Below are positions 10,270 to 31,346 of a stretch of 64,000 nt of DNA, piece by piece (the first letter of the stretch is position 1; every line of letters begins with the position of its first letter). A model generated the notes under the pieces. The model worked only from the letters and a program-made list of their open reading frames with translations. It was not told the DNA's origin and did no database searches. Origin of the DNA: Comamonas sp. Y33R10-2 (GTDB lineage Bacteria; Pseudomonadota; Gammaproteobacteria; Burkholderiales; Burkholderiaceae_C); NCBI RefSeq assembly GCF_019355935.1, contig NZ_CP079925.1:1922001-1986000 (forward strand). The letters are read 5' to 3'. A program made the translations under genes and the position numbers.

Positions 10270-10294
10270 TCGCTGAAACTCATCAGGTAATTCG

Positions 10295-13218: not shown

Positions 13219-13254
13219 TTTGTCTTTGACACCTAGAACAAAGAAAGCAAGATC

Positions 13255-14454: not shown

Positions 14455-14505
14455 TTGCGCTCGCCAACATCCTTCTGAATCGGTTTTTTGCAGGTCACCT
14501 TAGAC

Positions 14506-15426
14506 ATGGATATTTCTCAACTCAAAAGCTTTGTTGTCGTAGCAGAAGCCGGAAGCTACATCAGAGCATCCGACCTGCTTCAGATTCCACAGCCGACACT
14601 TAGCCGACAAGTTCGCGCCCTAGAGGTCGAATTACGTGCCAGCCTCTTTCACCGCCATGGTCGCGGCGTCCTGCTGACAGATCGAGGCAAGCGCTTCATC
14701 GAATATGCGCGCTCTATTTTGCTCACCGTAGATACAGCGCTACTCTCCGTTCGAGAAGATGAGGCCGAGTACAGCGGACAACTCGTCATTGGCCTTACGC
14801 CCAGCATCAGTCGACTGGTTATTCCATCACTTGCACGCCAACTGAAAGAACGCTTTCCCAGGGCAGCGATTAGCCTCACTGAAGGCCTATCCGGAGCCCT
14901 TTATGAACGCGTGCTGCTCGGCCAGCTAAACTTCGCCGTGCTACTCAGCCCAGCTAGCTCACCGAACTTAGACATCAGGCCTTTGGCCACAGAAGACTTC
15001 TATCTAGTTGGGCCGCAGTCCGATCGCGACCCAGCGGCATCGATCAGTGTTCAGGAAATAGCGGCACTCCCACTTATCCTCCCACACAGCAATCAATGGA
15101 CAAGGCCTGCGCTTGAATCGGCCGCAGCACGCTTAGGACTGCGCCTTAACATCGTGTTGGAAGTTGACTCAACCTTCTCCACTTTGGAGCTGATCCACCA
15201 AGGCATTGGATACTCCATCATGCCCGGAAGCATGCGACGCCTCCCCCGTATTCACGATCTTTCTTGGCAAAAGATTTCGAATATGGAAGCGACCGTCAGC
15301 ATCATCACACCTTCACGCCAGCCACGTAATCGCTTGATTGAGGACTCCATTTCAGAAGTCACCAATACAATCGTCGCTGTGTTTCGCGAGGAGAAAAGTA
15401 CTTCAATAGTAAGTCCGATCATTTGA
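14506..15426 (+). CDS. LysR-type transcriptional regulator of the aromatic locus
   Basis: The 306-residue product has the LysR winged helix at residues 1-60 (MDISQLKSFVVVAEAGSYIR, then IPQPTLSRQVRALE) and a periplasmic-binding-like effector domain (GQLVIGLTPSIS onward). I chose the ATG at 14506; an in-frame TTG at 14488 would add six residues. It lies 51 bp after the reductase gene in the same direction, so it may be cotranscribed and autoregulated. It is the only regulator in the locus, which makes it the best candidate for reading the CTAGAAT-type palindromes at 5331, 9315 and 10984. Confidence 0.88.
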   Translation: MDISQLKSFVVVAEAGSYIRASDLLQIPQPTLSRQVRALEVELRASLFHRHGRGVLLTDRGKRFIEYARSILLTVDTALLSVREDEAEYSGQLVIGLTPSISRLVIPSLARQLKERFPRAAISLTEGLSGALYERVLLGQLNFAVLLSPASSPNLDIRPLATEDFYLVGPQSDRDPAASISVQEIAALPLILPHSNQWTRPALESAAARLGLRLNIVLEVDSTFSTLELIHQGIGYSIMPGSMRRLPRIHDLSWQKISNMEATVSIITPSRQPRNRLIEDSISEVTNTIVAVFREEKSTSIVSPII

Positions 15427-15760: not shown

Positions 15761-17260
15761 TCAAATACGCTCAAAAACGGCCATGCTTTCCACGTGGGCC
15801 GTATGCGGAAACATATTGACCACACCAGACAGCACGCAGCGGTAACCGGCCTGATGCACCAGCAAACCCGCATCGCGCGCCAGCGTGGCGGGGTTGCAAC
15901 TCACGTACACGATGCGCTTGGGAAACTCCCAGCTTTCCTGTCCTTCAGGCAGCGCTGGCAGCAAGTCCGGCTGTTCTTCCGTAGCCACGCCCACTTGCTT
16001 GGCACCTGTGCGGATCTGGTGAATATCCGCCAACGCTTGAACCAAGGCAAAAGCGCCTTCGCGAGGGGGATCCACCAGCCACTTGTCTGCATTGCCGTCG
16101 GCAATAAGCATGGCGGGTGTCATATTGAACAGATTACGTGCCACAAAGGTCGTAGGCGCCAGCTTCTCACCCTCAGCGCGCACGGCGTTGTTGGCGGCAT
16201 AGTTTTCATGGGAGCGCTGCACCAGCGTGTCTGAGCCTTCAATGCCCAGCACTTCGCCGGCCATGGTGGCAATCGGCAAGGTGAAATTACCCAGACCGCA
16301 GAACCAATCGATAACACGCTCGCTCTTTTTAGCATCAAGCAAACGCAGTGAACGACCCACCAGCACGCGGTTGATTTGCGGGTTCACCTGTGTGAAGTCG
16401 GTGGGTTTGAACGGCATGGTGATGCCAAATTCTGGCAGGCTGTAAGACAACTGGGTGCCGCCCTCTTCCATGCGGTGTACGGTGTCTGGGCCCTTGGGCT
16501 GCAGCCACCACTGCACATTGTGCTCAGTGCCAAAGACGCGCAGACGCTCTTGGTCTGTCACGCTCAGCGGCTCAAGGTGGCGCAGCAGCATAGCGGTCAC
16601 ATGCTCGCCGCAAGCCACCTCGATCTGGGGCAGGGTTTCACGCGCATCCATGCTGCCAACCAACGCGCGCAGCGGCATCAACATGGCATCGACATGGGGA
16701 GGCAAAATTTTGCAGGTTTCCATATCGGCCACATAGCGGCTCTTGCGCTCATGAAAGCCGACCAGCACCTTGCTCTTCTTGATGACGTAGCGCACCGACA
16801 GACGCGAGCGGTCACGATAGCCCCAGGCCGGGCCTTCGATGGGGCGCAGCATAGTCTCGGGCTTGACCTTGGACAGATGCCAGAGGTTGTCTTCCAGCAC
16901 GCGCTGCTTGATGGCGACCTGGGCAGCGACATGCAGATGCTGCATCTTGCAGCCGCCGCAAGCACCATCGTGCAGGCCGAAGTTGGGGCAACCGGGCGTC
17001 ACACGCTGAGACGATTCGCGATGAATCTCAGTCAACGAGGCAGCTTCCCAGTTGTTTTTCTTGCGGTGGGTATTGGCGGTGACAAGCTCACCCGTCAAAG
17101 CACCGTCGATAAAGACTACCTTGCCATCGGGCTTGCGCGCTACGCCCTTGGCGTCCATATCCATGGACAACACCTGCAGCCAGCCCTCAGGCAAAGCCGG
17201 CGCATCGGTGTCAATTTCAGGCAGATTTTCGGGGATTTTGTTGTCGCTGGATTTACTCAT
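15761..17260 (-). CDS. rlmD: 23S rRNA (uracil-1939-C5)-methyltransferase RlmD
   Basis: It methylates U1939 of 23S rRNA with S-adenosylmethionine. I use the ATG at 17260 ([12 protein letters not shown], 499 residues); a GTG ten codons upstream is possible. An N-terminal TRAM-like domain is followed by the iron-sulfur cysteines ([19 protein letters not shown] and METCKILP). The methyltransferase domain has [23 protein letters not shown] and the nucleophile loop [12 protein letters not shown], ending with the base [11 protein letters not shown]. The length is slightly above the E. coli enzyme (433) because of inserts in the C-terminal domain. It is a housekeeping gene unrelated to its neighbours. 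Confidence 0.94.
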
Positions 17261-17513
17261 GGTGGGCAATTGTCTCAGGCTAGGCCGCACCCTTTGGCTC
17301 CATCACAAAATACCCAAGCCACGCCTAGCAACACTCGTGTCTAAAGCGCTGGCCCACCACAGACTCCAGTTCACGACGTCATAACCCGCCGCCATACCTT
17401 GCGATTTGAAATATTGCAACACCTTTTAACAGGTAGCATTTATTGCATTTGCACACATCAAGCCTTTGTCGCCGTGTGAATTTCGAATTTGAAGCCCTCG
17501 CAAGGCCCCACTC

Positions 17514-17981
17514 ATGACCATGCAACCACTCAAAAATACACGGCGTCGCGAATTTCTTGTACTGCTGTCAAGTTGCATTGCCGCAGATGCCTTTGCGACG
17601 AGTGCGAACACAAACAGCCAGCAAATCACCGAGCTAATGGCTGTTGGAAATGCTTTGGCCGGCACAAAAGTTGATAGTAAAGAGCTGGTGGGCCAATACC
17701 TGCAGGTGCTGCAAGAGCATCTTTCTCGCCCGCAAATAACAGCTTTTCTCACGCTAGCCAAGCAGCCTGCGAAGGTTCAAGCCACAGCGTCACGCCAAAA
17801 GCCGCTTAAAGAAGCCGCCGAGTTTGCACTGCAACTCTGGCTCAGTGCTATGCCCCCCATCAAAAACAGCGAAACCGTTCTTGCCTATATCGATGCACCG
17901 ATCTGGAGCACTTTGACGTTTACCAAACCCGCGGGCGTATGCGGCGGAGCTTTTGGCTATTGGGCCGACAAACCCGCCTGA
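17514..17981 (+). CDS. GMC-dehydrogenase small subunit (FAD-sorbitol/gluconate dehydrogenase gamma-like)
   Basis: This 155-residue protein belongs to the small subunits that partner membrane-bound FAD sugar or alcohol dehydrogenases. It has a twin-arginine leader (NTRRREFLVLLSS), a helical body and the conserved end FTKPAGVCGGAFGYWADKP. In characterised complexes the small subunit carries the Tat signal and the large subunit hitch-hikes through the membrane. The large subunit follows directly. This is the first gene of the ten-gene block; no regulator lies upstream, and rlmD points the other way across a 250-bp gap. Confidence 0.82.
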   Translation: MTMQPLKNTRRREFLVLLSSCIAADAFATSANTNSQQITELMAVGNALAGTKVDSKELVGQYLQVLQEHLSRPQITAFLTLAKQPAKVQATASRQKPLKEAAEFALQLWLSAMPPIKNSETVLAYIDAPIWSTLTFTKPAGVCGGAFGYWADKPA

Positions 17982-18049
17982 AGACCTTCGTCCTCATCTG
18001 CTACCTAAGCATGAGAGCGCCCATTTTTCTAAAGATTTTTGCACACACA

Positions 18050-19702
18050 ATGAACGCACCAAGCCCTCAAAACGAAACTTTTTCTGCGGACGTCATTGTC
18101 ATTGGCGCTGGTGCCGTTGGCGGCATGATGGCTTGGCAGCTGGCCAAAAAAGGCATCAAGGTTTTGATACTTGAAGCGGGCCCGCGTATTGATCGGGGAG
18201 ATGCCGTTCAACATTTTTTTAATTCCGCAGTTAAAGGGCCGAACTCGCCTTACCCCAACCAAGACTACGCACCTCACCCTATGCATGCCACCGATTACAT
18301 GGTGCAGGCGGGACCAGATGTTTTTGGTGGTAGCTTTTTGCGTGCAGTTGGTGGAACCAGTTGGCACTGGACAGGCTTTGCCACACGCTTTCGCCCCAAT
18401 GACTTCAAAACTCGCAGCCTTTATGGCGTAGGTGAGGACTGGCCGATTGCATACGAGGACTTGCTGGACCACTACCTGCTCATTGAAAAAGAGTGGGGAA
18501 CTGCTGGTGACGATGCTTTCGATCAAGGCTGCCCGCGTCATGGCCATGCATTTCCACTCCCCCCCGTCCCCATGGCCTATGCAGACAAGGTCATCAATGC
18601 GGCGATTGCCCCTTTAGGCTACACCGTCGGGCCCTTCAGCCATGCCCGTAACTCTGTCGTGCATGACAACCGCCCACCCTGCTGCGGCAGTGCAAGCTGT
18701 GTTCCAATTTGCCCTATCGGCGCCAAATATGACGGCAGCGTTCATATTGCCAAAGCAGAAGCGGCAGGTGCCCAGCTACTGTCTCAGGCATTGGTCGAGC
18801 ATATTGAAGTGGGCTCTGACTCCAAGATCAAAAGCCTACGCATACGCCGCGCTGATGGCAGCCGAGCTACTGCTAATGCAAAAATATTCGTGCTGGCTGC
18901 TCATGCCATCGAAACGCCCAATCTCCTGCTGCGCTCTCGCCAAGCAAGCGCACCTAATGGCGTTGCCAACAGTAGCGATGCCGTTGGCCGATATCTAATG
19001 GGGCAGGTGGACCTGGACACTAGAGCTTTGACGCGAGAGCCGCTCTATACCTACCGCGCACCCACCACGACAGCGGGTATTTTGGAGCTGCGCGATGGTG
19101 ACTTCCGCAAGCGCCACGCAGCCATTGGCACCTCGTTCCTTAACCGCGGCTGGCGCACTGGGCTTGGGCCTATGCAACGCTCAGCTCAGCTCATCAAAGC
19201 AGGTTTGAGAGGGCAAGAGCTAGCGCAAGCCCTCAATGATGAATGCGCACGCGAGCTCGCGATCAACAGCTCAGTGGAAACATTGCCTGTTGCACATAAC
19301 CGCGTCATTCCAGACCCAAAACTCAAAGACAGCAGCGGCATGCCCCGTCCACAGGTCAGCTTCACCATTGACGATTACAGCCTGCAAGCGATCAACCAAG
19401 CCCGCCTGCGCCATGACGAGATCACTAAAGCGCTGGGCTGCACGAATATCACCACCGACGAGCCCTCTATCGCGACGGCCATCATTGCAGGCACTGCGCG
19501 CATGGGCAGCAATGCGAAAACTTCAGTTGTCGATGATTCGTGCCGTAGCCATGACCATGCCAATTTGTTCGTGGTTGGTACGGCCAATTTCCCAACCATG
19601 CCGATTAACGCGCCGACGCTGACTGCAGCTGCCCTCGGCTTGCGAGCCCTACCTAGCCTTATTAACGACTTGAGCATTGGTCGCTTTCAGGCTAACGCCT
19701 GA
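18050..19702 (+). CDS. GMC-family FAD oxidoreductase large subunit with 3Fe-4S-type cysteines
   Basis: The 550-residue product (from the ATG at 18050; an ATG at 18011 is an alternative) has the FAD-binding motif DVIVIGAGAVGGMM at residues 14-27 and the GMC fold. Cysteines 211, 212, 217 and 221 in PPCCGSASCVPICPIGAKY match the motif that holds the 3Fe-4S cluster in Burkholderia FAD-glucose dehydrogenase. The partner Asn near 520 is kept, but the position that reads His-Ile-Met-Gly in that enzyme reads I-I-A-G here (478-481), so the catalytic His may be missing. No multihaem cytochrome subunit gene follows, unlike sugar dehydrogenase operons. The substrate is unknown. Confidence 0.82.
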   Translation: MNAPSPQNETFSADVIVIGAGAVGGMMAWQLAKKGIKVLILEAGPRIDRGDAVQHFFNSAVKGPNSPYPNQDYAPHPMHATDYMVQAGPDVFGGSFLRAVGGTSWHWTGFATRFRPNDFKTRSLYGVGEDWPIAYEDLLDHYLLIEKEWGTAGDDAFDQGCPRHGHAFPLPPVPMAYADKVINAAIAPLGYTVGPFSHARNSVVHDNRPPCCGSASCVPICPIGAKYDGSVHIAKAEAAGAQLLSQALVEHIEVGSDSKIKSLRIRRADGSRATANAKIFVLAAHAIETPNLLLRSRQASAPNGVANSSDAVGRYLMGQVDLDTRALTREPLYTYRAPTTTAGILELRDGDFRKRHAAIGTSFLNRGWRTGLGPMQRSAQLIKAGLRGQELAQALNDECARELAINSSVETLPVAHNRVIPDPKLKDSSGMPRPQVSFTIDDYSLQAINQARLRHDEITKALGCTNITTDEPSIATAIIAGTARMGSNAKTSVVDDSCRSHDHANLFVVGTANFPTMPINAPTLTAAALGLRALPSLINDLSIGRFQANA

Positions 19703-19743
19703 GCCAGCCCTGCTCCACCACGTTCACTCTATCTGGAAATTAC

Positions 19744-21516
19744 ATGCTTAGACGCTCTTGGCTCAAGGTATCAACCATCGCTTCTATGGCCACTTATTTT
19801 TCGTCCAAAGCGCAGGCTGCTCAACGCACCGCAAACTTGGCAAGCGCAGACGCAGGCTCAGAAGCGTACAAACGCATTGTTCGCTCTATTCGGGACGGCT
19901 TCCCATCGCCGACCACATCCTCAGCGGCTGATAGCCGATTCTCTCGGATCATGGCTTTCGCATTGTCTGAATACGAGAGCCTTAAGTCTCACCGTACTTT
20001 TTTGGGAAAACGCAAACCTCTTGACTATGCAGGTGCGCGCAAATTCCGAATGCAAAAGAATATGGCAGACATGCGCCGTACCGTTCAGGAGACGGCTCAA
20101 TATCTCGAAGGTCAATACACATGGAGCCACCCTGATGTGCACCGTCTGCATGGCTCTGCAACCTCCGTCTCCATCATTGGTCAGCTGTATGGCTCCCTTG
20201 TAGACCCCAATACAGTCTGGGATGATTTGTCGCACAAGACGGCTGAAGCAGAAGTCAGAGCCTCCGCAATGTGCGCCGAGCTCGTGGGCTATGACCCAGA
20301 TAAGGCGCTGGGACTGTTTACTTTTGGCGGCACAGGAACCACTCTTTACGGCATCAAAATTGGTGCAGAAAAAGCCCAGCCCGGCCTGTTTAATGATGGC
20401 CTGCGTCAGCCCATGCGCGTCTTCGCCTCTGATGTGGCTCACTACGCCAAGCTTAGCTCAACCGCTTGGCTAGGCTTGGGCTCTCAAGCGGCAGTCTCTG
20501 TGCCCACCACCGAAGACAATGCCATTGATGTACAGGCGTTAGAAAAATCTCTGCGTAGCGCTATCGCAAAAGGCGAACGTATTGCCGCCATTGTTGTCAC
20601 CATGGGAAGCACCGATGCTTTTGGCATAGACGACATCGAAGCCGTGCATGCGCTGCGCTTAAAGCTGGTGCAAGAGTACAAGCTTGACTATGTGCCGCAC
20701 CTGCATGCAGATGCCGTGATTGGCTGGGCATATAGCGTTTTCAATGACTACGACTTTGCACAAAACCCGCTAGAAATTCCCGACGCTGCACTGAACTCCC
20801 TCAAGCTAGTTCGCGAGCGTCTGCGTCACCTGTCACTCGCCGACTCTTTGGGCATTGACTTCCATAAGAGTGGCTACACACCCTATGCATCCAGCCTATT
20901 TCTGGCCCGGGATGCACAAATGCTCAGCCCCATCCGTCGCGACAAAGTGGCGATGCCCTATTTATTCCAATTTGGCGAATATGACCCCGGCATTTACACC
21001 TTGGAATGCTCACGCTCGGGCGGGCCAGTGCTCGCTGCACTGTCTAACCTGATTTTGCTGGGCAAAGATGGCTTTCGGGGCATGCTCAGCCACTGCCTTC
21101 AAATGTCAGAGCTCATGCGAAAAAAGGCGCGCGAGCTACCTTGGTTGACCGTACTCAATGCCGACAACCATGGTTCAGTGGTCGTTATTCGAGTCTATCC
21201 AGACAATGTCGAAGCCGACAGCTCATACCGCATAGAAAGAAGCGACGCCGCGCAAAAAGCCACGCTGCAAGCGCATAACGACTTCAACCAGGCCGTGTAC
21301 ATGCGCACCCGCGAGATGGCAGAAAGCGGCGAAAGCCCCGTGTTCGTGCAAACCAACCGGTACCGAGATACCCCGTATGGCATGCCAATCGTTGGCATCA
21401 AATTCTTCACGCTTTCCGTGTTCACCGACCCCGAATCCATTGATCGGGCTCTCGATGCGCTGCGCAAGGCGCGTGAATATGTGCAGCGACAAAACGCCCT
21501 CGCAAGCAAGAACTAA
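19744..21516 (+). CDS. Exported PLP-dependent decarboxylase (group II amino-acid decarboxylase family)
   Basis: The 590-residue protein starts with a twin-arginine-like leader, MLRRSWLKVSTIASMATYFS, ending near KAQA-AQ. The fold-type I PLP enzyme follows: GGTGTTLYGIKIGAE (residues 195-209, phosphate loop), stacking His 233 in DVAHYAKLSS, Asp 323 in HADAVIG, and the Schiff-base Lys 375 in IDFHKSGYTPYASS. Family members decarboxylate amino acids such as tyrosine, DOPA, glutamate or cysteine derivatives, almost always in the cytoplasm. Tat export would explain how a cofactor-loaded enzyme reaches the periplasm, as for PvdN of Pseudomonas. The gene sits 41 bp after the GMC gene and 9 bp before the peptidase gene. 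The substrate cannot be read. Confidence 0.82.
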   Translation: MLRRSWLKVSTIASMATYFSSKAQAAQRTANLASADAGSEAYKRIVRSIRDGFPSPTTSSAADSRFSRIMAFALSEYESLKSHRTFLGKRKPLDYAGARKFRMQKNMADMRRTVQETAQYLEGQYTWSHPDVHRLHGSATSVSIIGQLYGSLVDPNTVWDDLSHKTAEAEVRASAMCAELVGYDPDKALGLFTFGGTGTTLYGIKIGAEKAQPGLFNDGLRQPMRVFASDVAHYAKLSSTAWLGLGSQAAVSVPTTEDNAIDVQALEKSLRSAIAKGERIAAIVVTMGSTDAFGIDDIEAVHALRLKLVQEYKLDYVPHLHADAVIGWAYSVFNDYDFAQNPLEIPDAALNSLKLVRERLRHLSLADSLGIDFHKSGYTPYASSLFLARDAQMLSPIRRDKVAMPYLFQFGEYDPGIYTLECSRSGGPVLAALSNLILLGKDGFRGMLSHCLQMSELMRKKARELPWLTVLNADNHGSVVVIRVYPDNVEADSSYRIERSDAAQKATLQAHNDFNQAVYMRTREMAESGESPVFVQTNRYRDTPYGMPIVGIKFFTLSVFTDPESIDRALDALRKAREYVQRQNALASKN

Positions 21517-21525
21517 GACCTCACG

Positions 21526-22329
21526 ATGATAAATACCCGCAATTGCCTGCGCAGCACTAGGCATCTAAGTTCACGAATGCTGGTGAGCCTGTCTCTGGCG
21601 CTCTGCAGCGCTTTTCTCACACCTACGGCATTAGCGCGGGAAACTGCGCCTCAAGTCACTTTCGCCCCTTCCACTCAGAAGCCACTGGAGATTCCAAGCA
21701 ATCTCTTTGCGCTCTCGCACCCAATTGGTCAGCAGCGGCTTTTGCAAAGTGACTATCGCCAGCCCTACTGGCTGCTGGCAACCTACTTTGAAACCCAACG
21801 CAATCAAGCCTATTGCTCTGTTGCAAGTTCCGTCATCGTGCTCAACGCCTTAGGCCTGCCTAGGCCAGCCAATGCGCTGTATCCAGACTTTCCATTCTTC
21901 ACTCAGCAAGACTTTTTCACACCCGCCGACAAGCGCATTGCGGACCCGGACGTGGTTGCTAAAGAGGGTATGACCATGGACCAGCTCAGCGCCATGCTGG
22001 GCAACTACCCTGTCAACCAGCAAAAGATATTTGGCGACACGCTGAATGAGCAGAGTTTTCGCGAACTATTGAAGAAAAATCTCAAAGAAGATGATCGCTT
22101 TGTCTTGCTCAATTTCAACCGACGCATGACTGGTGAAATCGGTGGAGGACACTGGTCGCCTCTGGCCGCATACCACGAGCCCAGTGATTCTGTTTTGCTC
22201 ATGGATGTAGCACGCTACAAATACCCACCCGTGTGGGTCCCCCTCAAGGATTTGTTGCTGGGCGCGCAGGACCCAGACAGCGTAAGCAACAAACCACGCG
22301 GCGTTCTCATCATCAGCAAAAAACCATGA
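21526..22329 (+). CDS. Exported phytochelatin-synthase-like cysteine peptidase
   Basis: It belongs to the papain-like phytochelatin synthase family, whose short bacterial members mostly hydrolyse glutathione to gamma-glutamylcysteine. The 267 residues include an N-terminal hydrophobic export signal (RMLVSLSLALCSAFLTPTALA, about residues 17-37). The catalytic triad is visible: Cys 97 in QAYCSVASS, His 209 in GGGHWSPLAAY and Asp 227 in LLMDVARYKYPP. No plant-type C-terminal metal domain is present. The stop overlaps the start of the RCC1 gene by four bases, so the two are translationally coupled. Periplasmic action on a gamma-glutamyl or peptide substrate is inferred. Confidence 0.86.
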   Translation: MINTRNCLRSTRHLSSRMLVSLSLALCSAFLTPTALARETAPQVTFAPSTQKPLEIPSNLFALSHPIGQQRLLQSDYRQPYWLLATYFETQRNQAYCSVASSVIVLNALGLPRPANALYPDFPFFTQQDFFTPADKRIADPDVVAKEGMTMDQLSAMLGNYPVNQQKIFGDTLNEQSFRELLKKNLKEDDRFVLLNFNRRMTGEIGGGHWSPLAAYHEPSDSVLLMDVARYKYPPVWVPLKDLLLGAQDPDSVSNKPRGVLIISKKP

Positions 22330-23390
22330 GCCAGCCAGATAAGGTTCTGGACTTGGCTGCAGGCCGTGACCACAGCTTGGTATTGCGATCACAAGCGGGC
22401 TTGCTGGGCTGGGGGGGCGACGGCACAGGGCGCCTGCCTTTGCCTGCAGGGGTGTGCTCGGCTTCGGACTCCGAAAACAGCATGGTTTTGATCAGTCACC
22501 AGCCATTGCGCCAAATCACTGCGGGCGCGGGCAGCAGTTTGGCCTTGGATACACAGGGCAAAGCTTACGTATGGGGCGCTAACCGCGCTGGGCTAGGCGG
22601 TCAACAAGGCAGCATTACGGAATCAACACCGCGCTTGTTGCACGGACTTCCCGCCATCGAGCACATCAGTGGCAGCGAATTTTTTGCACTGGCGCTCAGC
22701 AAAGAGGGGCAATTGTTTCACTGGGGGCTGCTCCCCGGTGGCGCTCAGACTCAGAACATCGCCCCGGCTAGCGTGCAGCAAGCACCAGCGTGTTTGACAT
22801 GCAGCGCTGGCGGCTCTCATGCCTTAGCAATAGACCGGCAGCACACAATCTGGGCATGGGGCTCCAACACCGCAGGGCAGTTGGGCCTCGGTCACCTCAA
22901 AGATCAAGCCAGCCCCATACGGCTGCCTGTTTTGAAGCGTATGAAGGCCGTTGCAGCGGGCAGCAGCCATAGCTTGGCGCTTGATACCAATGGATCCGTA
23001 TGGGCCTGGGGAAGCAATCAGCACGGCCAGCTAGGTCACTCAGCCCCCAGTTACAGCCCTGAAGCCCTCAAAGTCAAACTCCCTGAAGCAATTACTCAAA
23101 TCGCAGCCGGGCAGCATGTCTCCTATGCACTCTCTCGCTCGGGCAATGTTTATGCATGGGGCTGGAATGCCAGCGGCCAGCTAGGCCAAGGAAATCAAAA
23201 CGCGCTGACAGGCATTCAATCCATTGCTTCATTGCGGCGCATCACCCAACTGGCAGCAGGCCACAGGCATGTGCTGGCCAGCGATGGGGCACGTGTCTGG
23301 GCATGGGGCGACAACCGCCGCGAGCAACTTGGCATCGCTATCCCAAGCATGGCCTCTCCCATCTTGTTGAACGAAACACAAGCGCTTTAA
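22326..23390 (+). CDS. RCC1-repeat beta-propeller protein
   Basis: I start at the ATG at 22326, which overlaps the peptidase stop as ATGA; upstream in-frame ATG codons lie inside the peptidase gene. The 354 residues hold about six to seven RCC1 blades, each with a phrase such as VWAWGSNQHGQLGHS, AWGSNTAGQLGLGHL or YAWGWNASGQLGQG plus an AAGxxHxLAL strand. No signal peptide is visible, so the product is probably cytoplasmic while its neighbours are exported. RCC1 propellers bind partner proteins; what it binds here is unknown. It is unusual among bacterial RCC1 proteins in sitting within a metabolic operon. Confidence 0.83.
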   Translation: MSQPDKVLDLAAGRDHSLVLRSQAGLLGWGGDGTGRLPLPAGVCSASDSENSMVLISHQPLRQITAGAGSSLALDTQGKAYVWGANRAGLGGQQGSITESTPRLLHGLPAIEHISGSEFFALALSKEGQLFHWGLLPGGAQTQNIAPASVQQAPACLTCSAGGSHALAIDRQHTIWAWGSNTAGQLGLGHLKDQASPIRLPVLKRMKAVAAGSSHSLALDTNGSVWAWGSNQHGQLGHSAPSYSPEALKVKLPEAITQIAAGQHVSYALSRSGNVYAWGWNASGQLGQGNQNALTGIQSIASLRRITQLAAGHRHVLASDGARVWAWGDNRREQLGIAIPSMASPILLNETQAL

Positions 23391-23410
23391 TACTGCGCAA
23401 CACCACCACT

Positions 23411-25123
23411 ATGAAAAGCGTACCGACTAACCGCCGTGATTTTCTCAATGTCTCATGGAAGCTTGGGGTTGGGGCCATTCTCCCCACTGCGTTAGCCGCC
23501 TGCGGCGGCGGCGGTGATTCATCGCCAGCGACTACCGAGACCTTCGTCGAGCCGCTACGTGTCGTCGCAAGCAATGGAGTATTGGACTACACCTTGCGCA
23601 TGACTTATGCAGACCTACGCTTAGATAACAAAGCCGTCAACCTACGCACTTACAACGGCATGATCCCAGCGCCAACGCTGCAAGTTGATGCAGGTGAGCT
23701 GCTGAAAATTCGCATCGTCAACGATCTTCCCCTCAATCCTGTGAGCCAAGAGCCAGTTGAGCACCTTCGCTATATGAATAGTGCCAACCTCCATACTCAT
23801 GGCCTGCATGTCACGCCGGGGCTGGTTCGCCCCAACGTCTATGGCGACTACGTTGTAGATACCCATACAACCGCCGTACACCCAGGTCAGAGCCGCCAGC
23901 ATGAATACGCTATCGGCAAAGATCACCCCCCGGGCACCTCTTGGTACCACCCCCATTTACATGGATCTACTGCCATTCAAGTTGGTAGCGGCATGGCTGG
24001 AGCCATTTTGATTAAAGGCGCACTAGATCAAGTCCCTGAAATCGCCGCAGCGCGCGACCGCGTTTTCATGTTCCAAGCACCGATCTCGGACGACAAAGGC
24101 CGGCTGGAAAGCTTCTCTCAAGTGGCAGATCCAAAATCCGAGCCTCCATTTCTCATCAATGGTCAGCGCCGACCAACTCTCGTGCTGCGCCCCGGTCAAG
24201 TTGAACGCTGGCGCCTGATCAATGCTGGTATTGCCAATTATCTGAACATCGAATTTCAAGATCACGCTCTGCACCTTGTGGCACTGGACTCCTGCCCACG
24301 CAGTCATGCACAAGTTTTCCAGAGCAACGACGCGCAAGCTGACGGGCTGGTTCTGTGCCCAGGCAATCGTGCCGATGTCTTGATCAAGGCAGGCGCGCCT
24401 GGCCGCTATGAACTCAGAACGAACTCCTATGACATGGGCAATGAACAGCCGCTGGACGCTGATGTTCTTGCCTATATTGTTGTAGAGGGAAGCCCAATCA
24501 ACATGGCTTTGCCGCAAAAACTGCCGCCGGTCCCTGAAGCGCTCAAGCACATTAGCGACGAAGAACTCGCTCAAAAAGGCGGGCTGCGACGCAGCATTGT
24601 TTTGCGCTCTGTTTTCAATAGTGATGGAAGCCCTTTGACAAGCGCTCCCGCACTCGACCTTCTGAACCTTCCCAATGGTGACCTGTCTCAATTGAGCCAA
24701 TGGCAATACCAAACAGACAGCACCTTTTTGGCGGATACGGCGTTGACGATGGGAGCCGCAAGCGACAAAGCATCTACTCAACCGCTGATGCCGCAGAAAC
24801 TGGCACCCATCCAATCGGATTCCGCCATACGCCAAACGGTGGACCTTGGAAGTGTTGAGGAATGGACTATCTACAATATGAACGGGGTACGCCACCCCTT
24901 TCACATCCACATCAACCCTATCGAAATTATCAAAGTCAACGGTGAAGCGGTCGAGCCTTTCTGGTGCGACACCATTGGACTGCCGCGAAACGGAAAACCT
25001 GAGGCACCCACGTCGGTGACATTCAGAACACGTTTTACAGACTTCCGTGGCGAGTACGTCATGCACTGCCACATCTTGGCGCATGAAGATATGGGGATGA
25101 TGCAAATCGTCTCGGTGGAATAA
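23411..25123 (+). CDS. Tat-exported multicopper oxidase, probable lipoprotein
   Basis: This 570-residue multicopper oxidase has a twin-arginine leader (NRRDFLNVSWK, residues 7-17) ending in the lipobox LAAC at 28-31, so it is probably exported folded and lipid-anchored. All copper motifs are present: HTHGLH at 128-133, HPHLHG at 180-185, HPFHIH at 495-500 and HCHILAHEDM at 552-561, supplying the trinuclear site and the type 1 copper with a Met ligand. The family oxidises phenols or metal ions and reduces O2 to water. In this block it could re-oxidise the GMC dehydrogenase or act on a phenolic product of the decarboxylase; both ideas are inference. It lies 20 bp after the RCC1 gene. Confidence 0.9.
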   Translation: MKSVPTNRRDFLNVSWKLGVGAILPTALAACGGGGDSSPATTETFVEPLRVVASNGVLDYTLRMTYADLRLDNKAVNLRTYNGMIPAPTLQVDAGELLKIRIVNDLPLNPVSQEPVEHLRYMNSANLHTHGLHVTPGLVRPNVYGDYVVDTHTTAVHPGQSRQHEYAIGKDHPPGTSWYHPHLHGSTAIQVGSGMAGAILIKGALDQVPEIAAARDRVFMFQAPISDDKGRLESFSQVADPKSEPPFLINGQRRPTLVLRPGQVERWRLINAGIANYLNIEFQDHALHLVALDSCPRSHAQVFQSNDAQADGLVLCPGNRADVLIKAGAPGRYELRTNSYDMGNEQPLDADVLAYIVVEGSPINMALPQKLPPVPEALKHISDEELAQKGGLRRSIVLRSVFNSDGSPLTSAPALDLLNLPNGDLSQLSQWQYQTDSTFLADTALTMGAASDKASTQPLMPQKLAPIQSDSAIRQTVDLGSVEEWTIYNMNGVRHPFHIHINPIEIIKVNGEAVEPFWCDTIGLPRNGKPEAPTSVTFRTRFTDFRGEYVMHCHILAHEDMGMMQIVSVE

Positions 25124-25151
25124 AGCCTGCTTTACTCTTTGACTGTTTGAT

Positions 25152-26552
25152 ATGAACTCTCCTTTGCAGCGTCAGGCTTCAAAGTGCAGTCACACATCCA
25201 GCAACAGCAATTCCAATCTGGTCGCATGGGCGCTTTGCGCCTTATGTGGCCTTATTGGTTTGGCCGGCTGGCTACTCATCACGCACGCTAACGCCCCGCT
25301 ATGGGCTCAAGATTTCAATCTTCAGCAGCTCGGACTGGGGCTTTGCATGCTGCTTTTGCTAGGTCTGTGGATGCTGCAATCCATGCCTGCCCTTGCGCCC
25401 ATGCTGCTGATTTTTCTGGTGATCAGCTTATTGGGTATACGCCCCGCTCAGGCCATTTTGACCCCTGCCGCGACGGATGCAACACTGTGGATGCTGACAT
25501 CCTTGGCCCTGTCCATCGCCGCTCGTGACAGCGGTTTACTGGGCTACTTGCTCAACCGGGCATGCAAAAGCCTGAAAGCGCCTCACAGTCAACAATGGCC
25601 CAGCCTCCGTCTCTCTTGCGTTCTGTGGCTAACCCCTGTTTTTGCGCTGCTGACATCTCCACGGCAATCCGCACACTGGCGCAACATTTATCTGCACACA
25701 ACACCAGCACACGAGAGCCATGAGCGCACATCTTCAGCCGCCCAACTTGCCGCAAAACTGATTTGGCTACCAGCTCATCCAGCAAGCTTGCTTATGCTTG
25801 CACTTTTACCGGCTGGGGGTTCAAACAGTTTCAGCGCACTTCACTGGTGCCTTTCCACTTGGCCACTCGCACTTCTTGCCTGCTGCCTTGGCTGCAGGTT
25901 TCAAGGCAATGACTCAGCACTAGTCTCCAGCCAGACTACAAAAGTCATCGGCTCATCTTCAGTCCCAGCACCCAATCCACATTACTTAGATCGCTTTGCG
26001 TTTCAATCCACGATCACCATCGCTTTATTTTGCGTTGTGCTGGTTGCATTGCAACCCTTTCATGGGATTGAACCGGGTTTGGTGACTGCGCTTGGGCTGA
26101 TCGCTTTATTTGCACTGCGCGTCATTACCCCAGCCGCATTGCAGCAAGGCATGGACTGGTCCTTGCTCGTTAGCTTCATTATTTTCCCAGGGCTACTGGA
26201 GTCTTTCTCCTCGATCACTCCAGTCGCCTTTAGCCTGCACGTGGAGCACTTGCAACCCGCATCTACGCTGCTGATCTTGCCTTTGCTGATGGCCCTCAGA
26301 TTCATCGTTCCGGCAGTGGCATTGACGATGATCACTATCATCGTCGGTGCACTTTGGGGGCATACACCCGGCACCAGCCTTTTGGAGGCTCTGCTACCCG
26401 TTCTCGTTGCGCTTCACTTGGTGGAGTTTTTAACGCAAACACATGAGCAATCTCCAAAGCTCTGGCTACGCCTGCGCTATGCCTATTCAGCGCCCAGCAC
26501 ATGGGCAATTTTGCTTGCATTTCCATTGTGGCTTCAATGGGTACGCTCATGA
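25152..26552 (+). CDS. DASS/IT-superfamily-like permease 1
   Basis: The 466-residue protein has about eleven hydrophobic segments and resembles divergent divalent anion:Na+ symporter (SLC13-like) permeases, for example in TPAATDATLWMLTSLALSIAARDSGLLGYLL and in the C-terminal half. The typical SNTAT sodium-site motifs of well-studied DASS carriers are not visible, so the match is distant. Its stop overlaps the start of the next gene, a membrane-anchored binding protein, as ATGA. The same permease-binder pair is repeated directly downstream. It probably moves a substrate or product of the periplasmic enzymes encoded before it. Confidence 0.62.
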   Translation: MNSPLQRQASKCSHTSSNSNSNLVAWALCALCGLIGLAGWLLITHANAPLWAQDFNLQQLGLGLCMLLLLGLWMLQSMPALAPMLLIFLVISLLGIRPAQAILTPAATDATLWMLTSLALSIAARDSGLLGYLLNRACKSLKAPHSQQWPSLRLSCVLWLTPVFALLTSPRQSAHWRNIYLHTTPAHESHERTSSAAQLAAKLIWLPAHPASLLMLALLPAGGSNSFSALHWCLSTWPLALLACCLGCRFQGNDSALVSSQTTKVIGSSSVPAPNPHYLDRFAFQSTITIALFCVVLVALQPFHGIEPGLVTALGLIALFALRVITPAALQQGMDWSLLVSFIIFPGLLESFSSITPVAFSLHVEHLQPASTLLILPLLMALRFIVPAVALTMITIIVGALWGHTPGTSLLEALLPVLVALHLVEFLTQTHEQSPKLWLRLRYAYSAPSTWAILLAFPLWLQWVRS

Positions 26553-27625
26553 AAGCAGGATTCAACAATTGTCAGCGCTGGCTCATCGCTGCCACCTTGG
26601 TTTTTTTATGGGTAAGCCTCGCATGGACTGGAGCACTACGGCCATCTGTTCTGGTCGTTCACAGCCAAGACAAGACAATCCCTTGGACCCGCGGCATTAA
26701 TGTCGGCATCGATACAACGATCACACCCATCTCCAACATCAGGCTGCATAAATCTCACATCTCCACAAGCAACGGCGCCAATCCAGATACGCAAATCTCA
26801 CGCACACAACGCTTCATCAAGCTTTGGCAACCTAGTGCGCTGATCGTTGTTGACGACCTTGCACAAACGCGTATCGGCCTACCTTACGCAGCCAACAAGC
26901 CCGTCATCTACACCGGCATCGAAGACCACGAAAGATCACTCGCCAGCCTGCAAGCCAGTGGTGTTCGCGGTATCGCGCAGAGAACGCCTTGGGACAGCAT
27001 CGAGCACAGTTTGGTTAGAGCTGTGCAGTTAAACGCCCCTTCGCACAAAGCCAGCACCTCTGAATTACGCATTGCACTCATTTCAGATACGGGCCCTGCC
27101 GCAGAAGAGGAAGCTCGCAGCTTCGAGCAGCACACCTGGAAGCTTGCCAAACCGATTGGGGTGTGGCGCTGTAAAAACAAAGAGCAATGGATTGCTGCAC
27201 TCCATGAAATTGCAGAATCTGCAGACATCGTTGTCATTGGAGACTATCGATACATGCAGCCAAGCGATAGCTTGAATCACAAACAATGGCGCCGCATTCT
27301 GGCGCAGGAAGCGCTTGATCGCTTGTCTCAGCCAATCGCTGCGTTATCTGCTTATGCCTTAGAAGATGGAATTCCCATGGGAATACTTCCTTCCCCCATG
27401 GAGCAAGGCGAGGTTGCCGCCAAGATGGCGCTGCAGCAGATATCCAAGCATGAGATTGCTATCCCCAAGCAACCCTCATCGCTTTCGCAACAGCATTTGC
27501 AAAGCCAACATTTTTTACTTTTACTCAACCCAGCACAGGTACAGCGCCGACACCTGAAAGTTGATGCTCTAGACGCTTACTACGCACGCTCATCCGCGCG
27601 ATTAATCGGAGTCTCTGCTCAATGA
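26549..27625 (+). CDS. Membrane-anchored ABC_sub_bind-type binding protein 1
   Basis: I start at the ATG at 26549, which overlaps the permease stop. The 358-residue product has one N-terminal hydrophobic segment (WLIAATLVFLWVSLAWTGAL) without a clear cleavage site, then a periplasmic type-1 binding fold. The sequence RPSVLVVHSQDK, IVVDDLAQTRIG, NKPVIYTGIEDHE and ASGVRGIAQRTP follows the order seen in ABC_sub_bind (YrhO/TrpX-like) proteins. No ABC ATPase or permease gene is nearby; instead a DASS-like permease gene is on each side, and the next gene overlaps by four bases. The ligand is unknown; relatives are often annotated for aromatic amino acids. Confidence 0.65.
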   Translation: MKAGFNNCQRWLIAATLVFLWVSLAWTGALRPSVLVVHSQDKTIPWTRGINVGIDTTITPISNIRLHKSHISTSNGANPDTQISRTQRFIKLWQPSALIVVDDLAQTRIGLPYAANKPVIYTGIEDHERSLASLQASGVRGIAQRTPWDSIEHSLVRAVQLNAPSHKASTSELRIALISDTGPAAEEEARSFEQHTWKLAKPIGVWRCKNKEQWIAALHEIAESADIVVIGDYRYMQPSDSLNHKQWRRILAQEALDRLSQPIAALSAYALEDGIPMGILPSPMEQGEVAAKMALQQISKHEIAIPKQPSSLSQQHLQSQHFLLLLNPAQVQRRHLKVDALDAYYARSSARLIGVSAQ

Positions 27626-29298
27626 ACCATCCGTTGCAGCAGCACCCGGTTTTTGCACAGCTAGGAGCGTCAGAGCAATATGTGCTGACTTGCAATGTTC
27701 AAGAAATCACTTGGAACTGCGCCAGGGACCTCCGGCAAATCAGCCCATCTGCTCAAGTATTCGGCTGGTTTGATGACGGAACGCCCATTGAGGCCATCAC
27801 CGCTGACGTCCACAGCAACGCGTCTGAGCTGATTACTCCTGATTTACCCGGCTACGGCTGGGTCGCTCCGGCAGCCTTGCTCAGCACCCTCAGTCAGCAA
27901 CGCTGCACACCACGCGTGTCACCTGCGCCATTCAATATTCGTGAAGCGCTTGGCTGGGTGCTCGCCCTATCACTACCCGCCTGGGCTCTGCTTCTCATGG
28001 CAGGTATCAACGATGAACGAACCCAGTGGTTGATCTTCTCCGCTTCATTGGCGGCAGGTTTATGTGTCTGGGTGTTGAACCTAGCGCCTCCGTTGATTGG
28101 AGCCTTGCTCGCATTAACACTCATGATGGCCGGTAACCATTTGCCAGTTCAACAGGCTCTTGCAGGGCTCACTACCGGAAGCTTCTTCTTACTATTGGGA
28201 ATGTTTGGCTGTAGCGCTGCGGTACAGCGCAGCGGCTTGATGCCTCGCCTTTTAAGCAGTCTTTTGCGCCCACTGCCGCGTACCCCACGCATCTTTCAAC
28301 TGGCATTGCTTCTGATCGGAAGCGCCATGACCATGTTTATCCCTAGCAGCAGCGGCCGCCTGCAACTGATTGCCCCCATGGTCAGCGCCCTGGCAACACC
28401 GTTGAGCCGAAGCGCCTTGGCATTCATCGCCCTGTCGGCCTGCACCTTTTTTTCAACTTCATTTCTGTTGGGTAATGCAGCCAATTTCATTGTGCTTGGC
28501 ATCTTGCCTGACCACTGGCAGCCCTATGTCAACTGGAGCACCTGGTTTCAATGCGCTGCAATTTACACCGCAACAATGATCGCCAGCTTAGTCATCAGCA
28601 CCGCTTTTGAGGGAAAAAAAGGCCCCCCCCATAAAGAATTGGCACCTTGGACAGCGCCTAAACTGCCTCCCATGGGGAGAAAAGAGCAGATTACTCTGCT
28701 GTCGTTAATCGTTTTGGCAACTGGCGCGGCAACAGTACATACACACCATATTGAAATGGCTTGGCTTGCACTTTTCATTTTGGTTTTACTGATGTTTACC
28801 GGAGTACTGCCCGCCACCAGGCTTCATAGCGACATTCAGTGGAGCATTCTAATTTACCTCATTTGCACAACAGGTCTGGCTCGCGGCTTTACTTTCATGG
28901 GCATAGAAAAAGTGCTGCTAAGTCAACTTGACATGCTTGAGCCACTGATTCGAGATCAGCAATCAATATTCCTCGCCATGCTGATTGCCACCATATTGCT
29001 GCTTCGTTTAGCTCTGCCTTCTGTGGTCTGCATTACAACGCTGTGCGCCATTCTTATACCTTTGGCAGACGTACATGGTTTAAATCCGCTGGTACTTGGC
29101 TTTGTCATTGTTACAGCCAGCGAGATTTGGTTTTTACCGCACCAAAGCTCGGACTTTCTAATGTTCAGAGAGTCCTGCCAATGCACGCATGCAGAAAGCA
29201 CTTTTATGCTCAAGCGTAATGCGTTAATGCAATTGACTCGAATTTTTGCCTTGGCGCTCAGTCTTCCCTACTGGCTCTCCATGGGGTTCATTCAGTGA
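27622..29298 (+). CDS. DASS/IT-superfamily permease 2 with N-terminal soluble domain
   Basis: The 558-residue protein has about 110 soluble residues and then eleven to twelve hydrophobic segments of a SLC13-like permease, with IPSSSGRLQLIAPM near residue 245 and LLRLALPSVVCITTLCAILIPLA in the second half resembling the two hairpin regions. The N-terminal start, HPVFAQLGASEQYVLTCNVQEI, faintly resembles the opening helix of cyclic-nucleotide-binding domains, which some DASS permeases carry, but I would not assign that. It starts and ends in four-base overlaps with the two binding-protein genes. The substrate is unknown. Confidence 0.66.
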   Translation: MNHPLQQHPVFAQLGASEQYVLTCNVQEITWNCARDLRQISPSAQVFGWFDDGTPIEAITADVHSNASELITPDLPGYGWVAPAALLSTLSQQRCTPRVSPAPFNIREALGWVLALSLPAWALLLMAGINDERTQWLIFSASLAAGLCVWVLNLAPPLIGALLALTLMMAGNHLPVQQALAGLTTGSFFLLLGMFGCSAAVQRSGLMPRLLSSLLRPLPRTPRIFQLALLLIGSAMTMFIPSSSGRLQLIAPMVSALATPLSRSALAFIALSACTFFSTSFLLGNAANFIVLGILPDHWQPYVNWSTWFQCAAIYTATMIASLVISTAFEGKKGPPHKELAPWTAPKLPPMGRKEQITLLSLIVLATGAATVHTHHIEMAWLALFILVLLMFTGVLPATRLHSDIQWSILIYLICTTGLARGFTFMGIEKVLLSQLDMLEPLIRDQQSIFLAMLIATILLLRLALPSVVCITTLCAILIPLADVHGLNPLVLGFVIVTASEIWFLPHQSSDFLMFRESCQCTHAESTFMLKRNALMQLTRIFALALSLPYWLSMGFIQ

Positions 29299-30278
29299 CT
29301 AATATCTGGCGTCGATTTGAACCATGGGCATGGGTCGGCTTACTTGCTTTGTTGGCATGGGCCACCATTTTGGTGAATACACAAAGTCGCCGAGTCTTGA
29401 TTCTTCACGAAGGCAAAGCGGACAGCGCTTACAGCAAAGCCTTTAATGCAGGCGCTAAAGAAATCTTCCAGGCTCACCCACAACTCAAAGTTCGCCATCA
29501 GTATTTGGGTTTCAGTCAAGATTCCTGCCGAAGCATCCAATCTCAGCTTCGAGCTTTTGACCCTGACACCGTCATCTCAGAGGGTTCTCAAGCCCTAGAC
29601 TGCCTTCGCTCGCCCGCAGGCACAACTCATGGCAAAGGGCAATATCGGCTGCTCAACATGCCCTCCCCGCCGCTTCGTGACGAGAACCCGCAAGCCTATG
29701 AGAGCCACGTCAACGCTTGGCAGCGCACATTCACAGACCTCGCCCAAGGCGCGACTCAAAAATTATTGATTTTCAAAGCTGCCCAAGAATCAAACAATTT
29801 CATATGGCAAGCTGTGGCACAAGCGGCGCTCGTCGCAGGTCTCGATATTGATATCCAAGAATTTCCGTCACGCCAATCATTGCCACTAGGGCTGCAAGCC
29901 ACTCTATCGACACTGGTGCAGTCCATCGAGCCCACGTTAATTTACGTCAGTGACCTCGCTGGACAAGTCCCCGATCAAGACCTGAATTCAACGCAAAACG
30001 AATTGTTCAAAGCGCTTCACTCAACGAGCGAAGCAGCCTTGCTTTCATCTCGCTTGGACTCTTTGCAGTGGGGAAGCGATCTGGCACTACAGCAAGCGCC
30101 TGAACAACGAGCAAGCATGCTCGCGCTCGCCGCTTGGGAGCAAAGCACGCTCGCACAGATCGATACCTATGAGATGGCTGTTGGTATGCGAGAAGAATTT
30201 GCCACCAGCCACCCCCTGTTCCCAAAATTTTACGAACGCAATGCCCGTGCCGCGGGCTTTTTCCTCAGCACTCCATAA
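29295..30278 (+). CDS. Membrane-anchored ABC_sub_bind-type binding protein 2
   Basis: The start is GTG at 29295, overlapping the permease stop TGA. The 327 residues have one N-terminal anchor (WAWVGLLALLAWATILVNTQ) and a periplasmic binding-protein-like body: RRVLILHEGKADSAYSKAFN, ISEGSQALDCLRSPAG and a C-terminal domain with LIYVSDLAGQVPD. It is a distant paralogue of the protein at 26549-27625, and again no ABC partner exists. It ends the ten-gene block; the next gene converges on it from the other strand 20 bp later. Confidence 0.6.
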   Translation: MTNIWRRFEPWAWVGLLALLAWATILVNTQSRRVLILHEGKADSAYSKAFNAGAKEIFQAHPQLKVRHQYLGFSQDSCRSIQSQLRAFDPDTVISEGSQALDCLRSPAGTTHGKGQYRLLNMPSPPLRDENPQAYESHVNAWQRTFTDLAQGATQKLLIFKAAQESNNFIWQAVAQAALVAGLDIDIQEFPSRQSLPLGLQATLSTLVQSIEPTLIYVSDLAGQVPDQDLNSTQNELFKALHSTSEAALLSSRLDSLQWGSDLALQQAPEQRASMLALAAWEQSTLAQIDTYEMAVGMREEFATSHPLFPKFYERNARAAGFFLSTP

Positions 30279-30298
30279 AACGGGGTGCAAGCGACGTG

Positions 30299-30616
30299 TT
30301 ATCGAGAAAAGCGTGAGTCCTCACGAGTGCGACGGTCGCGATTGTTGCGGGCTGCCGCGACCTGAGCGCGGTCGGCGATCAAGTTGACTTCAGTCGCGCA
30401 GTTGTACTCGTCCAGCGAGAAGAACATCCTCGCGCCGGGGCTGAGTTGGGGCACAGTCATATGCAGCGGCTGCGAGAGATCGACTGGCGCCAAGTTGGAG
30501 CGATAGATCAGCTCGTTATTTGGCGCGTAAACAAAGTAGCAAGCTGCCGATGCGGCTTGGGCCAGAGCGCAGGCCGACACCAGCACGGTGGCACGTAATA
30601 CAGATACAGCAGTCAT
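30299..30616 (-). CDS. Small secreted protein of unknown function, 105 aa
   Basis: The start at 30616 follows AAGGGAGAGACTTC. The product has a signal peptide (ATVLVSACALAQAASA, cleavage near residue 25) and a small mature domain beginning CYFVYAPNNELIYRSNLAP, with a second Cys in DEYNCATEV that could form a disulfide, and a basic tail (NNRDRRTREDSRFSR). I recognise no function. It is divergent from the GbsR/MarR-type gene, and the palindromes in the 205-bp interval may control both. Confidence 0.7.
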   Translation of the reverse strand: MTAVSVLRATVLVSACALAQAASAACYFVYAPNNELIYRSNLAPVDLSQPLHMTVPQLSPGARMFFSLDEYNCATEVNLIADRAQVAAARNNRDRRTREDSRFSR

Positions 30617-30762: not shown

Positions 30763-30810
30763 TTCACTGGATTGAAATTTCTGTATTGACAGAAATTTCA
30801 ATCCAGTGAA
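30763..30810. promoter_or_regulatory. 22-bp perfect inverted repeat, probable operator of the GbsR/MarR gene
   Basis: Two 22-bp arms are exact reverse complements around a four-base loop (ATTG). The core is TTTCTG-N6-CAGAAA at 30778-30795. It ends 11 bp before the start codon at 30822, so bound regulator, or the hairpin in mRNA, would block expression. Autoregulation is the likely reading. Confidence 0.75.
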
Positions 30811-30821: not shown

Positions 30822-31346
30822 ATGCAACTAAGTCCTATCGCCGAACGTTTTGTGCATCACTGGGGTGACATGGGAAACGCCTGGGGCGTCAACCGCACCG
30901 TGGCGCAGATCCATGCCTTGCTGTTCTTTCATGGCCGCCCGCTCAATGCCGATGACATCTGCGAAACACTGGGCGCTGCGCGCTCCAATGTGAGCAACAG
31001 CCTCAAGGAACTGCTGAGCTGGAATCTGATTCGCAGCAGCCGCAAAACAGGCGACCGGCGCGAATACTTTGAAACCTCGGCTGATGTATGGGAGCTGCTA
31101 CGCACCATTGTGAGAGAGCGCAAGCAGCGGGAGTTTGACCCCACCAGCGCCCTGCTACGTAATTTGATTGCGCAGCCCGAGTTTGAGCAAGAAACACCCG
31201 ACGCCCAAGACCGCGTGCACGAGACCCTGCGCCTGATGGACTCGCTAGGCATTTGGACAGATGAAATGCTGCGCTTATCCCCCTCTACGCTAGACAAAAT
31301 TTTGCGTATGGGTGCCAGTGTGCAGCGCTTTGTGCGGAGTTCTTAA
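30822..31346 (+). CDS. GbsR/MarR-type transcriptional regulator
   Basis: The 174-residue protein matches the GbsR-like branch of MarR regulators: an N-terminal helix (SPIAERFVHHWGDMGNAWGVNRTVAQIHALLF), the winged helix with GAARSNVSNSLKELLSWNLI, and the wing SSRKTGDRREYFETS, followed by a helical dimer region. The gene is preceded by a perfect 22-bp inverted repeat with the core TTTCTG-N6-CAGAAA, and the same core stands before the epimerase gene downstream. I infer that it represses itself and the epimerase/DoxX/DUF2269 operon. The signal is unknown. Confidence 0.88.
   Translation: MQLSPIAERFVHHWGDMGNAWGVNRTVAQIHALLFFHGRPLNADDICETLGAARSNVSNSLKELLSWNLIRSSRKTGDRREYFETSADVWELLRTIVRERKQREFDPTSALLRNLIAQPEFEQETPDAQDRVHETLRLMDSLGIWTDEMLRLSPSTLDKILRMGASVQRFVRSS

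Follow-up and report, generated by a model that had tools for sequence, protein, structure and literature searches.

Ten adjacent genes that join exported enzymes to transporters raise the question of whether they act together and, if so, what they do. They lie in the genome of Comamonas sp. Y33R10-2 (one contig, 3.84 Mb), of which a stretch of 64,000 nucleotides, referred to here as the window, was analyzed. Inspection of open reading frames (ORFs) placed ten co-directional genes, g1 to g10, at positions 17514-30278 of the window. The block was found to recur in the same order in other genomes and, compared with other genomes of the genus, is inserted; the ten genes look like an undescribed pathway. 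The original prediction, made from the sequence alone, had described a same-direction ten-gene block with a largest gap of about 70 bp and several starts overlapping stops, and both ORFs and order were as described. With corrected starts, the intergenic distances from g1 to g10 were 68, 41, 9, -4, 20, 28, -4, -4 and -4 bp, giving a maximum of 68 bp and four overlaps of -4 bp. The Pfam families recovered were GMC (PF05199/PF00732), Pyridoxal_deC (PF00282), Phytochelatin (PF05023), RCC1 (PF00415/PF25390), three Cu-oxidase domains in g6, and Na_sulph_symp/CitMHS in the second permease, g9. Export signals and anchors were assessed by reading motifs by eye and by simple hydropathy. Twin-arginine (Tat) motifs were seen in g1, g3 and g6, the last with a lipobox, a Sec-type hydrophobic stretch in g4 and hydrophobic anchors in g8 and g10, in agreement with the at least four export signals, three of them twin-arginine, that had been claimed. 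No export signal was seen in g2 or g5 by these means.

Relatives were collected with one genome per species; 338 decarboxylase relatives were found in 357 stretches and the best 80 were kept. The tblastn queries in these first scans carried over-long ORF starts for g2, g5, g6 and g8. Six close loci were obtained, two from Simplicispira, two from Curvibacter, one from a Comamonas metagenome-assembled genome (MAG; L035) and one from a MAG labelled Variovorax (L038), all of them Comamonadaceae. By tblastn, g1-g10 were complete and in the same order in four of them (L034, L036, L037, L039), and a fifth full-length copy outside the window, again in the same order, was found in genome G574 (locus L134), which has the same family label. 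L035 carried g1-g6 only, followed by unrelated genes, two of which we read as cyanophycin synthetases. The L038 contig terminates inside g4; since its decarboxylase and the one of L037 share 99.7% identity and an upstream ORF is common to both, L038 was not taken as an independent locus. As Curvibacter lanceolatus has a decarboxylase with this 99.7% identity, the Variovorax label of L038 or its binning may be wrong. The transport half thus accompanied the enzymes in six of the seven loci long enough to show it. A search for same-order co-occurrence had been proposed as a check of the block, and it returned all ten genes in five other loci and g1-g6 in a sixth. Across the window and the six named loci, with weak and antisense-ORF matches set aside, no flanking genes were shared except by the two Curvibacter loci and by the pair L037/L038. 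For the ten genes, protein distances computed pairwise over six loci correlated at r 0.84-0.97, the g6 and g8 starts of G574 being approximate in this comparison. Of 399 family genomes, own genome included, 3 carry the decarboxylase. In 74 more distant decarboxylase loci no other block gene was detected (tblastn, E 1e-5), and in 61 of these no gene group was common to more than nine loci. The claim that no described pathway has these members stood, in that none of the open-licence papers listed for the gene set or for its single families was seen to describe it.

The inserted island, consisting of the ten genes and short flanks, was delimited to 17281..30308 on the forward strand by homology breaks against five empty sites. 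It lies between an RNA uracil-methyltransferase-like gene on the left (15761..17290, reverse strand, PF05958) and a MarR-type regulator on the right (30822..31346, forward strand, PF12802), both outside the island. All 41 same-genus genomes (own genome included) have the left gene, and 34 of the 41 have the right one, with paralogues counted. The site was compared in 16 of the 40 other same-genus genomes, those with a best right-flank match of at least 83% identity. The spacing between the flanks was 556-806 bp in fifteen of these, compared to 13,531 bp in the window; the sixteenth (G1078, contig 43) had a 2047-bp gap at the site. DNA similarity to the five empty sites ended at 17280/17281 and resumed at 30309 in three and at 30329 and 30366 in the other two. 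The block-type GMC gene was found in only 1 of the 41 same-genus genomes, the next-best match having an E value of 1e-122. A chance cluster is ruled out by the insertion relative to these empty sites together with the same-order recurrence in other loci. Family-model scans found no recombinase among the ten block proteins. A plasmid-borne copy was also considered and rejected; tblastn of the decarboxylase against a plasmid collection gave 236 records, every one below 60% identity. A self-complementary stretch of 27-34 bases lies at 30770-30805, just 5' of the MarR-type gene, with reverse matches at three of the five empty sites, and is possibly an operator. Left of the island, 9436-15423 holds genes for an alpha/beta hydrolase, a BphC-type extradiol dioxygenase, a flavin reductase and a LysR regulator, a set of the aromatic meta-cleavage type that was not seen in the other block loci.

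The first two genes, on the forward strand like all ten, encode a dehydrogenase pair. g1 (17514..17981) was assigned as the Tat-exported small subunit of a FAD dehydrogenase of the PF12318 FAD-SLDH type from its TRRREFL motif, from alignment and from its orthologues; the window copy gave no Pfam match, and the two orthologues scanned, of L034 and L036, matched PF12318. g2 (18050..19702) is a GMC dehydrogenase large subunit of the FAD/3Fe-4S type with no signal of its own. It matched 6a2u with an E value of 4e-118, and also fructose dehydrogenase, aligned over its full length with glucose and fructose dehydrogenases, and retained the FAD site and the four cysteines of the 3Fe-4S motif. FAD-dependent glucose dehydrogenase and fructose dehydrogenase (FDH) complexes are known from Burkholderia and Gluconobacter. 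The block resembles them in its Tat-bearing small subunit, signal-less GMC large subunit and four-cysteine motif, and differs in having no cytochrome c gene and in the residues corresponding to N1146 and H1147 of FDH. These two, the residues mutated in PDB entries 8k6k and 8k6j, are replaced by Ala and Ile in g2 and in six of six aligned orthologues. Among the 120 g2 homologues listed, of 3007, histidine occupied that position in none and the four cysteines were present in all, which indicates a large GMC subfamily rather than a quirk of the block. Alcohol oxidation, the role first proposed for the GMC enzyme, is made doubtful by the absence from g2 of the Asn-His pair before the GT.RMG motif. 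No CxxCH motif of a cytochrome c subunit was found in the ten block proteins, the search covering the block and not the rest of the genome.

g3 (19744..21516) carries PF00282 and a Tat motif and is a relative of PanP and of the diaminobutyrate and tyrosine decarboxylases. In a comparison of offsets and motifs with the L. brevis tyrosine decarboxylase (LbTDC), g3 was found to keep the pyridoxal phosphate (PLP) lysine K375 as well as the stacking histidine H233, D323 and the active-site tyrosine Y381. Y381 is located six residues past the lysine, as is Y398 in LbTDC. H241 and Y398 of LbTDC served as the reference residues for the active site, and mutants of Y398 have a much lower kcat, according to the published study (PMC4904194). 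The Lys/Asp/His/Tyr set predicts that g3 is a group II PLP decarboxylase. Its best solved matches, aromatic, tyrosine and diaminobutyrate decarboxylases, were all weak and partial (5hsi, E 2e-13, residues 227-429), and the NCBIfam models TIGR03799, NF052646 and TIGR03811 all scored far under their cut-offs. g3 thus shares family and active-site Lys, His and Tyr with LbTDC, PanP and diaminobutyrate decarboxylase, and is set apart from them by its export, its linkage to a GMC enzyme and the weakness of the matches. Among the 120 homologues listed, a Tat motif was present in 40 of the 45 with at least 51% identity, and one of the five without it is a truncated entry for the protein of the window itself; the other 75 gave three loose matches, read as non-signals. 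Export therefore seems to mark the g3 clade. Of the relatives outside it (P0046-P0120), those with names come mostly from uncultured bacteria; many carry STAS domains and some CBS domains.

The depth of the linkage was estimated from equal lengths of the longest contigs of protein clusters, a comparison of lengths in which the contigs themselves were not read. Nine of 44 decarboxylase clusters (at least 51% identity, the window's own record left out) shared a length with one of 40 GMC clusters; these nine cases span 54-81% identity, and at least one source agrees in each. By eye, five of the nine lengths (20608, 70067, 15057, 54104 and 15969) also occurred in the copper oxidase list, and a further length, 103494, links decarboxylase and copper oxidase. 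A length of 2828 was common to the GMC and oxidase lists with differing sources and was read as a chance coincidence. As equal lengths extend down to 54% identity, decarboxylase and GMC enzyme would be the oldest visible pair.

g4 (21526..22329) is a Sec-exported cysteine peptidase resembling phytochelatin synthase (PCS), of the Alr0975 type. It matched PF05023 with 187 bits and Alr0975 with an E value of 2e-52, and the triad C97, H209 and D227 was kept in six of six orthologues. The match covers the full domain and the catalytic triad of Alr0975 of Nostoc, and the difference is that g4 sits in a ten-gene operon. Peptidases of the phytochelatin-synthase type cut the Cys-Gly bond and leave gamma-Glu-Cys. 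The cleavage of a gamma-glutamyl bond suggested earlier is not the reaction known for this family. The PCS-like gene is also found on its own. G559, which bears the same genus label as G622, the Curvibacter sp. HBC61 genome from which L036 comes, has L036-type flanks (88-92% DNA identity) with only a PCS-like gene of 88% identity between them. This gene is open throughout, and dN of 0.045 and dS of 0.46 relative to L036, over 244 codons, are consistent with purifying selection. The decarboxylase was not found in G559 with a decarboxylase alignment, in a search that had no positive control. The peptidase can thus persist without other block genes, and the contrast between G559 and L036 fits a deletion around the PCS-like gene and a later gain of the block around it alike. 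PF05023 was present in 19 of 398 family genomes. Ten of the 16 remaining after exclusion of own genome, G574 and G622 were inspected; none had another block gene, and G559 has its PCS-like gene at the block site.

The RCC1-repeat beta-propeller encoded by g5 (22326..23390; PF25390, 235 bits) has UVR8 chains as its closest solved matches. A UVR8-like photoreceptor role was rejected, as no GWRH motif is present. Since g5 has no export signal, the block is not wholly periplasmic as it had been described. g6 (23411..25123) is a Tat/lipoprotein three-domain multicopper oxidase, laccase-like, with copper ligand motifs (T1, T2/T3) that were invariant in six of six orthologues. Its best solved matches were laccases, with CueO chains ranking lower, and its best NCBIfam model was CueO, at 100.6 bits versus a cut-off of 525.

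The remaining four genes, of which g7 and g10 have diverged more, form two permease-binder pairs. g9 (27622..29298) is a DASS-type permease (Na_sulph_symp/CitMHS) with about 100 residues ahead of its first membrane span; Na_sulph_symp scored 61 bits versus a cut-off of 27, and DctM was under its cut-off. g7 (25152..26552), with nine hydrophobic stretches, is a diverged DASS-like permease that aligned with the g9 family (hhalign 97%, E 6e-11). g8 (26549..27625) has an N-terminal hydrophobic stretch and was assigned as a membrane-anchored ABC_sub_bind-type binder from its homologues in L135, L137 and L139, all three of which matched PF04392 when scanned. g10 (29295..30278), also with a hydrophobic stretch, is probably a diverged copy of g8, as judged from an hhalign match of 94% restricted to 113 N-terminal columns. 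No Pfam match above cut-off was obtained for g7, g8 or g10 in the window, and their scanned orthologues gave stray weak ones only. The two canonical sodium-site Ser-Asn-Thr motifs were not plain in the DASS-type permease on reading by eye. A terminator-like hairpin with a T run lies at 30243-30257, within the last codons of g10. No shared promoter motif was seen 5' of g1 across six loci.

Pairs of this type also occur elsewhere. In ten of ten loci with strong g9 matches (L135-L139 and L185-L189, nine genomes), an ABC_sub_bind-type gene lay directly downstream of the permease; the weaker DASS matches L141-L146 had no downstream binder in six of six, and L140 ends within the permease. Both g9 homologues scanned had an N-terminal cyclic nucleotide-binding (cNMP) domain, PF00027. 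Such a domain was considered for g9 itself and rejected, as there was no PF00027 match and the N-terminus did not align to it. The pairs adjoin alkaline phosphatase genes in L139 and L187, hydroxyphenylpyruvate dioxygenase genes in L135 and L136, and genes for acetyl-CoA synthetase, malate dehydrogenase and fumarase in L185, L186 being similar by eye. In L137 (1793-6609) two genes were read as nucleotide cyclases, one of them beside the cNMP-DASS/ABC_sub_bind pair, and in L138 (13043-15916) an ORF of 957 residues with RCC1 similarity lies near the pair, among ORFs alike by eye. According to PMC6359215, di- and tricarboxylates or sulfate are transported by DASS permeases, and the DASS-like permeases of the block therefore suggest an anionic cargo. 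The block has the Na_sulph_symp/CitMHS match, with DctM under its cut-off, in common with DASS (VcINDY) and TRAP transporters; unlike in these, a membrane-anchored binder comes after each permease, and a cNMP domain is present in two homologues, not in g9. For DASS systems with a binding protein or a cNMP domain, the open-licence papers listed dealt with ordinary DASS transporters and, in one case, Streptomyces genomes.

The explanation tentatively preferred, which we hold to be quite possible, is a mobile operon whose products would process an amino-acid-type compound in the periplasm and then take up the resulting acid. The large subunit g2 would leave the cell as a passenger of the Tat-carrying g1. 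The g4 peptidase would release or trim a peptide-bound substrate, and g3, with the Lys/His/Tyr set of tyrosine decarboxylase, would make an amine from it. The GMC enzyme, lacking the usual histidine base, and the O2-reducing copper oxidase would take the product to an acid, which the permease/binder pairs would import, and the RCC1 protein may be a cytoplasmic or co-exported scaffold. The copper oxidase is perhaps the electron sink in place of the missing cytochrome subunit; the constant presence of a copper oxidase in a block with no cytochrome makes electron flow from GMC enzyme to oxidase an attractive idea, offered as a proposal. Several observations weigh against this explanation. Decarboxylation gives amines and DASS permeases move anions, so that the oxidation step must be assumed, and ordinary alcohol oxidation is doubtful for a GMC enzyme without the Asn-His pair. 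No locus with a simpler form of the pathway was seen. The lengths 454832 and 29771, at 54-56% identity, are not among the copper oxidases listed (120 of 1380). L035 and G559 indicate that parts of the block are separable, L035 having no transport half. Trees of single genes disagree in part, those of g1, g4 and g6 joining the window with L035 and that of g3 joining L035 with Curvibacter. The block has a GC content of 0.538 and the window one of 0.552, values so similar that composition gives no sign of recent transfer. Of the original prediction of modification followed by uptake, the transport half found in six of seven loci bears out the coupling; a DASS permease is ill-suited to a bare amine. 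The proposal of a one-unit pathway likewise gains from the conserved unit and loses from the PCS-like gene standing alone in G559.

The separability of L035 would also fit two co-travelling modules serving separate pathways, with g1-g6 as a set of exported oxidoreductases and g7-g10 as a duplicated module for anion uptake. In this MAG g1-g6 are followed by unrelated genes, and g9 was not found in it, in a search without positive control; pairs of the g9-g8 type occur without these enzymes in ten other loci, and the transport genes are less alike, at 32-56% identity to the window compared to 43-80% for g1-g6. We nevertheless consider two modules unlikely, because the ten genes are ordered alike in six loci, with transport genes overlapping by 4-7 bases in the five whose starts were resolved, because the two halves correlate in their distances at 0.84-0.95, and because the insertion in the window comprises precisely the two halves, L035 being a MAG. 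PCS and multicopper oxidases are both known from metal handling, and the block could alternatively be a periplasmic metal or thiol stress system, with glutathione trimming as the role of the PCS-like enzyme and copper or thiol handling as that of the copper oxidase. The intact copper ligands and peptidase triad fit such a system, as does CueO as best NCBIfam model for g6, though at 100.6 of 525 bits. Laccases outrank CueO chains among the solved matches, however, none of the ten genes encodes a metal regulator, an efflux pump or a chaperone, and the decarboxylase and GMC enzyme, the deepest linked pair seen, fit nowhere, which makes a stress system distinctly improbable.

Pyoverdine maturation offers a further precedent, since PvdN and PtaA are Tat-exported PLP enzymes working outside the cytoplasm, as described in PMC6206403. 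g3 is likewise a PLP enzyme with a Tat signal, a likeness drawn from that description and not from a sequence comparison; g3 differs in belonging to PF00282, and no siderophore genes are among the ten. Tailoring of a secreted metabolite would share the logic of a Tat-exported PLP enzyme combined with periplasmic oxidation steps (PMC6206403). As none of the ten genes encodes an NRPS, an exporter or a receptor, and as the transporters look suited to small-anion uptake, it is judged improbable. Least probable, and indeed very doubtful, is a periplasmic gamma-glutamyl-peptide route. Here the PCS-like enzyme would trim glutathione or a conjugate to gamma-Glu-Cys, g3 would act on the free alpha-carboxyl of the gamma-glutamyl group in the manner of PvdN, whose target is a gamma-linked Glu, electrons would pass from the His-less GMC enzyme to the copper oxidase and not to a cytochrome, and a new binder-dependent heteromeric DASS pair would import the product.

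Periplasmic processing followed by acid uptake thus remains the preferred explanation, and the block is of interest because it is compact, can insert as a unit and is built around an exported decarboxylase. It provides three leads, the large GMC subfamily that lacks the customary catalytic base, the Tat-marked clade of PLP decarboxylases and the recurring pair of a DASS permease and an anchored binder. The G559 site, with only the PCS-like gene, is a ready genetic contrast. The permease-binder pair would extend binding-protein-dependent secondary transport past TRAP-like systems.

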